Assembly: GCA_027490995.1 (NCBI GenBank)
Contig: JAIXWY010000011.1
Span: 1,302,001-1,366,000, forward strand
Reading direction: 5' to 3'
Length of the DNA: 64,000 nucleotides
Source of the DNA: Opitutaceae bacterium
GTDB lineage: Bacteria; Verrucomicrobiota; Verrucomicrobiia; Opitutales; Opitutaceae
Under the pieces are notes generated by a model that saw only the letters and a program-made list of their open reading frames with translations, did no database searches and was not told the DNA's origin. A program made the position numbers and the translations under genes. Below, in pieces: positions 31,001 through 31,532 of this stretch. Numbering within the stretch: position 1 is the first letter of the stretch; each line of letters opens with the position of its first letter.

Positions 31001-31029
31001 TTGACAAGAGCGCGGTCGCAAGGCTTCGT
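31001..31029 (+). promoter_or_regulatory. Candidate promoter for the attenuator leader
   Basis: A perfect -35 hexamer TTGACA lies at 31001-31006. At 17 bp spacing the -10 position reads CTTCGT, which is poor, so only the -35 element is convincing. It lies 35 bp before the leader ATG, which would leave a very short untranslated leader. Confidence 0.35.
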
Positions 31030-31041
31030 CCCTCCTCTCTC

Positions 31042-31164
31042 ATGTCCCTCAGCGGAACGACAATCTCGGCAGGCCTTTCCGTCCACGGTTACTCCGTGGT
31101 CGCCTCCGTCATTGCCTCCATTTCCGTCGCCGTCGTCGTTACGCGCGCGCCGCAGGGGGTCTGA
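31042..31164 (+). CDS. Probable ilv-type leader peptide (40 aa)
   Basis: Forty codons, ATG to TGA, of which nine are Val, three Ile and two Leu, concentrated at the 3' end (VASVIASISVAVVVTRAP, residues 20-37). The cluster of Val codons at 31132-31140 sits 14 nt before a G-rich segment that can form an antiterminator, exactly where a stalled ribosome would need to be. The layout and the VVVTRAP stretch resemble leader peptides of ilvB-type operons. Pyrimidine-rich DNA, not a Shine-Dalgarno sequence, precedes the ATG. It is a regulatory peptide, not expected to have a function of its own. Confidence 0.7.
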   Translation: MSLSGTTISAGLSVHGYSVVASVIASISVAVVVTRAPQGV

Positions 31165-31196
31165 CGTCACTCTCAATGACTCGCCCCCTCCGGTGC
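31147..31196 (+). promoter_or_regulatory. Antiterminator of a ribosome-mediated attenuator
   Basis: Bases 31147-31160 can pair with 31183-31196: 13 pairs including two G-U, one C-C mismatch, core AGGGGG (31154-31159) with CCCCCT (31184-31189). The 3' partner is the same sequence that forms the 5' arm of the terminator, so the two structures exclude each other. The 5' partner lies inside the last codons of the leader peptide and would be masked by a ribosome that reaches the TGA. Confidence 0.7.
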
Positions 31197-31219
31197 CGCC
31201 GGAGGGGGTTTTTTGTTTT
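31184..31219 (+). terminator. Intrinsic terminator of the attenuator
   Basis: CCCCCTCCGG (31184-31193) pairs perfectly over 10 bp with CCGGAGGGGG (31199-31208) around a five-base loop, followed at once by TTTTTTGTTTT. This is a strong rho-independent terminator. It lies 20 bp after the leader-peptide stop. Confidence 0.92.
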
Positions 31220-31277: not shown

Positions 31278-31532
31278 ATGATCATGAATGCCAGGCCTCA
31301 CCCGCAACCGCGTACATCGACGCAACCGCCCGTGCCCCGTTGGAGCCAGACGGCGGCGCTTCTCCGCCCGGACCCATCGCCGTCAGCCGAGGTTCCGCCT
31401 CCGCAGGATAGCCGCGACCGTGAATGCGGCAGGATCATGACGCACGACTTCCTCCTGGCCAATCTGCACCCGGAGTTCGTGCGCGACGCCATCGCGGCCG
31501 AGGAACGAAGGCTTTGCGCCATCGACCTCTAG
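31278..31532 (+). CDS. Possible small ORF downstream of the attenuator
   Basis: ATG-initiated frame of 84 codons, the only + strand frame of note between the attenuator and the convergent isomerase gene. The first half is Pro/Arg-rich and low in complexity; the last 31 residues, from a second in-frame ATG at 31437, look more protein-like (MTHDFLLANLHPEFVRDAIA). No family is recognised, and it does not resemble any branched-chain amino acid enzyme. The remaining bases of 31220-31563 show nothing else. It may be a decayed or non-coding segment. Confidence 0.25.
   Translation: MIMNARPHPQPRTSTQPPVPRWSQTAALLRPDPSPSAEVPPPQDSRDRECGRIMTHDFLLANLHPEFVRDAIAAEERRLCAIDL

Follow-up and report, generated by a model that had tools for sequence, protein, structure and literature searches.

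The 64,000-nucleotide stretch of an Opitutaceae genome analysed here (the window) carries a Val-rich leader ORF followed by two alternative RNA stems, and this element probably acts as a ribosome-mediated transcription attenuator, with valyl-tRNA (and perhaps isoleucyl-tRNA) as its signal and the gene of a microprotein behind it as its target (Table 1). By mechanism the element belongs to a known kind of attenuator, and what is unusual is its target; comparison of homologous loci indicates a maintained regulator whose object is most likely the microprotein gene. From the anatomy of the locus and the comparative evidence, we strongly infer both valine sensing and switching of the microprotein.

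Anatomy of the leader and its alternative stems

A sequence-only reading had described the element as an ilv-type attenuator, and its account of the parts agrees with ours. Translation reproduces the 40-codon leader with its 9 Val, 3 Ile and 2 Leu codons, a short ORF rich in control codons, the candidates being Val19-20, Val23, Val29 and Val31-33. Upstream lies a probable −35 box behind which no clear −10 candidate is found, and among the 114 loci that have TTGAC it stands 40-42 nt 5' of the leader ATG in 73, with the leader start taken as the furthest upstream ATG, which may be wrong in some loci. Since, in addition, a Shine-Dalgarno-like sequence precedes none of 150 leaders and is likewise lacking in the window, the leader transcript is suggested to have a very short 5' UTR or none at all. 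Transcription from the promoter at 31001, ribosome stalling and the response to valine are what we infer from this arrangement. Within the leader ORF, a CCAC..GTGG hairpin, perhaps a polymerase pause site, recurs in 53 of 86 small-ORF-type leaders versus 1 of 35 ilvB-type ones.

Table 1. Features of the attenuator locus in the window
Feature	Positions	Strand	Basis
Probable −35 box, TTGACA	31001-31006	+	41 nt 5' of the leader ATG; sequence and recurrence in homologues
Val-rich leader peptide ORF, 40 codons	31042-31164	+	Translation MSLSGTTISAGLSVHGYSVVASVIASISVAVVVTRAPQGV, then stop
6-bp hairpin CCACGG-TTACT-CCGTGG in the leader ORF, candidate pause hairpin	31083-31099	+	Sequence; recurrence in homologues
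Antiterminator 5' arm, last five leader codons	31147-31160	+	Pairs with 31183-31196; kept in nearly all 30 homologues
Intrinsic terminator: 10-bp stem 31184-31193/31199-31208, loop 31194-31198, T6 31209-31214	31184-31214	+	MFE fold; compensatory changes
HDFLV-family microprotein gene, 84 aa, motif HDFLLANLHPEF at residues 56-67; probable attenuator target	31278-31532	+	Motif; dN/dS

The terminator proposed in the sequence-only reading lies 3' of the leader and its stem appears in the MFE fold of the window sequence (−25.9 kcal/mol), the segment 31040-31220 as a whole folding with z = −3.4 (equally stable shuffles, 0/200), and an alignment of homologues reveals compensatory changes at 6 of 11 consensus terminator pairs. 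The alternative stem was likewise borne out, as a duplex of 13 pairs with one mismatch and a stability of −26.2 kcal/mol that shuffled arms seldom equal (p = 0.002); the two structures are mutually exclusive and balanced in strength. A check of relatives for leader codons and stems gave a mean of 6.9-8.0 Val per homologous leader together with the conserved pairing listed in Table 1, and in the divergent homologues G020, G022 and G027 the antiterminator arm fits the terminator arm of its own locus better than those of the others. No ribosome-free protector stem (1:2) could be established for the attenuator, and Rfam held no family matching the element at the gathering threshold (best E 3.3).

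These features are consistent with a simple switch. With ample valine, the ribosome would reach the leader stop codon, where by codon positions it should cover and thereby mask the antiterminator 5' arm; the terminator would then form and transcription would stop near 31214. When valine is scarce, the ribosome would stall at about Val29-Val32, its 3' edge predicted from the codon positions to coincide with the first position of the arm (31147) or fall slightly within it; the arm would be left free, the antiterminator would form and RNA polymerase would continue into the microprotein gene.

Spread of the element and the genes behind it

A DNA search of 57 relatives, followed by a covariance model built from 30 homologues, places the element in 171 of 252 Opitutaceae genomes and 43 of 49 genera, a recurrence far above chance, and both stems are conserved in the 30 homologues; the ilv-type reading is well supported. 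Scanning the GTDB species collection for the pattern returned 43 stretches, all but two of them labelled Opitutaceae, Opitutus, Opitutae, Opitutia or Verrucomicrobia. We read 150 loci (30 at first, then 120), many of them from draft genomes; because they were picked by model score, the following type counts describe a non-random sample: 36 with ilvB directly behind the leader, 85 with a microprotein ORF and no aminotransferase, 17 with a microprotein ORF and an aminotransferase, 7 with other genes and 5 ending with the contig. An ilv gene thus does follow the same leader in relatives, as the sequence-only reading had suggested looking for, and at these 36 loci it is the second ilvB of the genome; in the relatives searched for IlvB, copies above the cut-off generally number one in microprotein-type genomes and two in ilvB-type ones.

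At 10 loci from six other families of the order, ilvB again stands behind the leader; it is therefore probably the ancestral target of the attenuator, and its recurrence behind the leader, inside and outside the family, indicates which pathway is sensed. A leader-ilvB unit would then be the most likely ancestor, its ilvB copy having shrunk to, or given way to, the microprotein ORF. Both locus types occur within one genus in six genera, and four genomes (G002, G127, G134 and G164) have two loci, one of each type, the HDFLV motif being degenerate in G127. Neighbours common to ilvB-type and microprotein-type loci were sought and none was convincing, which leaves replacement of ilvB in place unproven.

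Several loci depart from these main types. Among the 7 with other genes, L044 (G013) has, immediately 3' of the leader, the gene of a small protein that looks ACT-domain-like and resembles IlvN, the AHAS small subunit. In the same group, model matches at L202 (G014), L193 (G240), L200 (G243) and L207 (G247) directly precede an MFS transporter resembling fosmidomycin-resistance proteins, at least three of the four with a short Val-containing leader, and possibly represent a separate attenuated exporter. At L220 (G282) all that follows the match is a stretch similar to residues 431-556 of IlvB, its C-terminal quarter, which may be a truncated copy. L221 (G303), from another family of the order, has a version of the microprotein with GHDFLVVNPRPDL, HDFLVVNPRPDL and C-terminal FGIDYP. 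Weak order-level matches (E about 1e-4) in G289, G056, G380 and G232 proved on inspection to be plain terminators or unrelated sequence.

The HDFLV microprotein family and its possible origin

Behind 102 of the 150 loci, distributed over 23 genera and including the window, stands an ORF of 58-111 aa with the motif HDFLVxNxRPDL; we define the family by an HD[FLM]L motif in an ORF of this length directly behind the attenuator, and the window ORF, whose start may be ATG 31278 or 31284, belongs to it. Of the 109 non-ilvB loci whose length allowed a judgement, 102 have the motif, against 0/109 of their 3-mer shuffles and, at the same score, none of their reverse strands, which rules out a chance motif. 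Its D and L are invariant while third codon positions vary freely (GAC 52, GAT 50); the conservation is therefore of the protein, and an RNA-level explanation such as a hairpin is ruled out. Comparison of 20 close pairs gives a dN/dS of 0.10 for the 13-codon core, 0.42 for the fast-evolving N-terminal part and 0.32 for the ORF as a whole, which is under protein-level purifying selection. Pfam and NCBIfam contain no family matching the microprotein, and its AlphaFold model (pLDDT 70, pTM 0.27) shows a C-terminal helix and otherwise no fold.

The gene 3' of the microprotein ORF differs between loci and in many of them is convergent, so that the target they share is the ORF itself. The sequence-only reading had left three options, namely loss of an ilv operon, control of the small ORF or production of a trans-acting RNA, and the second is the best supported, since in 23 genera the attenuator is followed by this ORF, whose protein family is conserved and under selection. 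The third has a precedent in the Sinorhizobium meliloti trpL attenuator, whose leader products, among them the peptide peTrpL, act in trans (PMC7298713). By analogy with rnTrpL/peTrpL, the terminated leader RNA or the leader peptide of the window would be the active product and the microprotein secondary. The leader does stand alone with a strong terminator, and both attenuators have an output other than a biosynthetic enzyme; however, a purely trans-acting RNA would leave unexplained the consistent, selected ORF that the window, unlike trpL, carries as a separate gene behind the terminator, and we regard this reading as improbable.

Returning to the microprotein as the target, we note that the N-termini of several genera's microproteins align without gaps to that of IlvB, as for G067 (MNTTTALQRNLLLTQHDIRLPAGFPGG versus MKITGANLLRTLLERQGIRTLAGIPGG). 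By a custom ungapped scoring of our own, G025 and G067 reach z = 6.9 and z = 6.6, and 27% of microproteins score at p<0.05 versus 3% of reversed sequences; the same scoring detects no IlvB-like N-terminus in the window's own microprotein. Aligning the IlvB-like subset to IlvB with hhalign gave P = 5e-4. The IlvB-like N-terminus kept by several members suggests that the microprotein may descend from a truncated leader-ilvB unit. Derivation of HDFLV itself from the IlvB sequence KHNFLV was suggestive and not significant (P = 0.05). Our foremost guess at what the HDFLV microprotein does, bolder and rather unlikely, is that of a truncated and refunctioned acetolactate synthase fragment, induced by valine starvation and regulating branched-chain amino acid metabolism, with IlvB or IlvN as conceivable binding partners; if so, a biosynthetic gene would have become a starvation-induced peptide regulator while retaining its own attenuator.

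Maintenance of the attenuator and relation to known systems

In the window the attenuator is followed by the small ORF and then a convergent isomerase, so that, as first described, no branched-chain biosynthetic gene lies directly behind the leader. Six g1 relatives have, 3' of the microprotein, an aminotransferase related to 2-aminoadipate and multi-substrate aminotransferases, followed in most of them by the same convergent isomerase. In the genomes of the window and its two closest relatives (G000, G003 and G004), this aminotransferase is missing at the locus and genome-wide, no match elsewhere pointing to relocation. The window's genome still has two ilvE-type (Aminotran_4) genes, and its single main ilvB (C14:518423-520211) is distant from the locus and without such a leader. 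These losses could be read as those of a relict attenuator, deprived first of ilvB and then of the aminotransferase and now decaying, a reading that we consider still less probable than action in trans and reject on the conservation of the attenuator core. Among the three genomes this core is 97-99% identical, whereas the upstream flank has fallen to 45-79% and the small-ORF region to 58-79% (97.2%, 45.5% and 58.3%, respectively, between the window and G003); an element that remains near-unchanged while its flanks diverge is no leftover. Moreover, leader and microprotein occur without the aminotransferase at 85 loci, and the core of the microprotein survives the loss of that gene. Of the operon loss originally proposed, there stand the probable ancestral role of ilvB and the additional loss of the aminotransferase in this lineage; the implied decay of the attenuator does not. 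Least probable of all is that the small ORF is a mere translated spacer or a second regulatory ORF coupling translation to a downstream aminotransferase, whose start it overlaps by 4 nt in several loci, given that this gene is missing behind 85 of the 102 ORFs and that the conserved block, with its low core dN/dS, lies inside the ORF, away from the junction.

In the enterobacterial ivbL-ilvBN and ilvL-ilvGMEDA systems, stalling at Val, Leu or Ile codons chooses between terminator and antiterminator, and the targets are biosynthetic operons. The same choice is proposed for the window element, which differs in having a leader without a Shine-Dalgarno sequence and putative control of a single small ORF. 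A leader ORF with attenuator hairpins also lies 5' of ilvB in Corynebacterium ilvBNC (PMC10272879, PMC11857589), and amino acid leaders have been described in actinobacteria (PMC1262725). The ilvB-type loci resemble these in layout; the Corynebacterium target is the AHAS gene, whereas the window and most of its relatives have the microprotein instead. The supposition that such attenuators are little described in Verrucomicrobia agrees with our literature search: it turned up no paper on them in that group.

To our knowledge, almost all amino acid attenuators described so far switch biosynthetic operons. In the present case a predicted attenuator is conserved across one bacterial family mainly 5' of an undescribed microprotein, and in relatives the same element precedes ilvB, an aminotransferase operon, an IlvN-like protein and possibly a transporter, which offers a handle on how a sensor persists while its target changes. 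A small protein absent from the searched family libraries thereby gains a predicted inducer, valine starvation, which makes its function testable.
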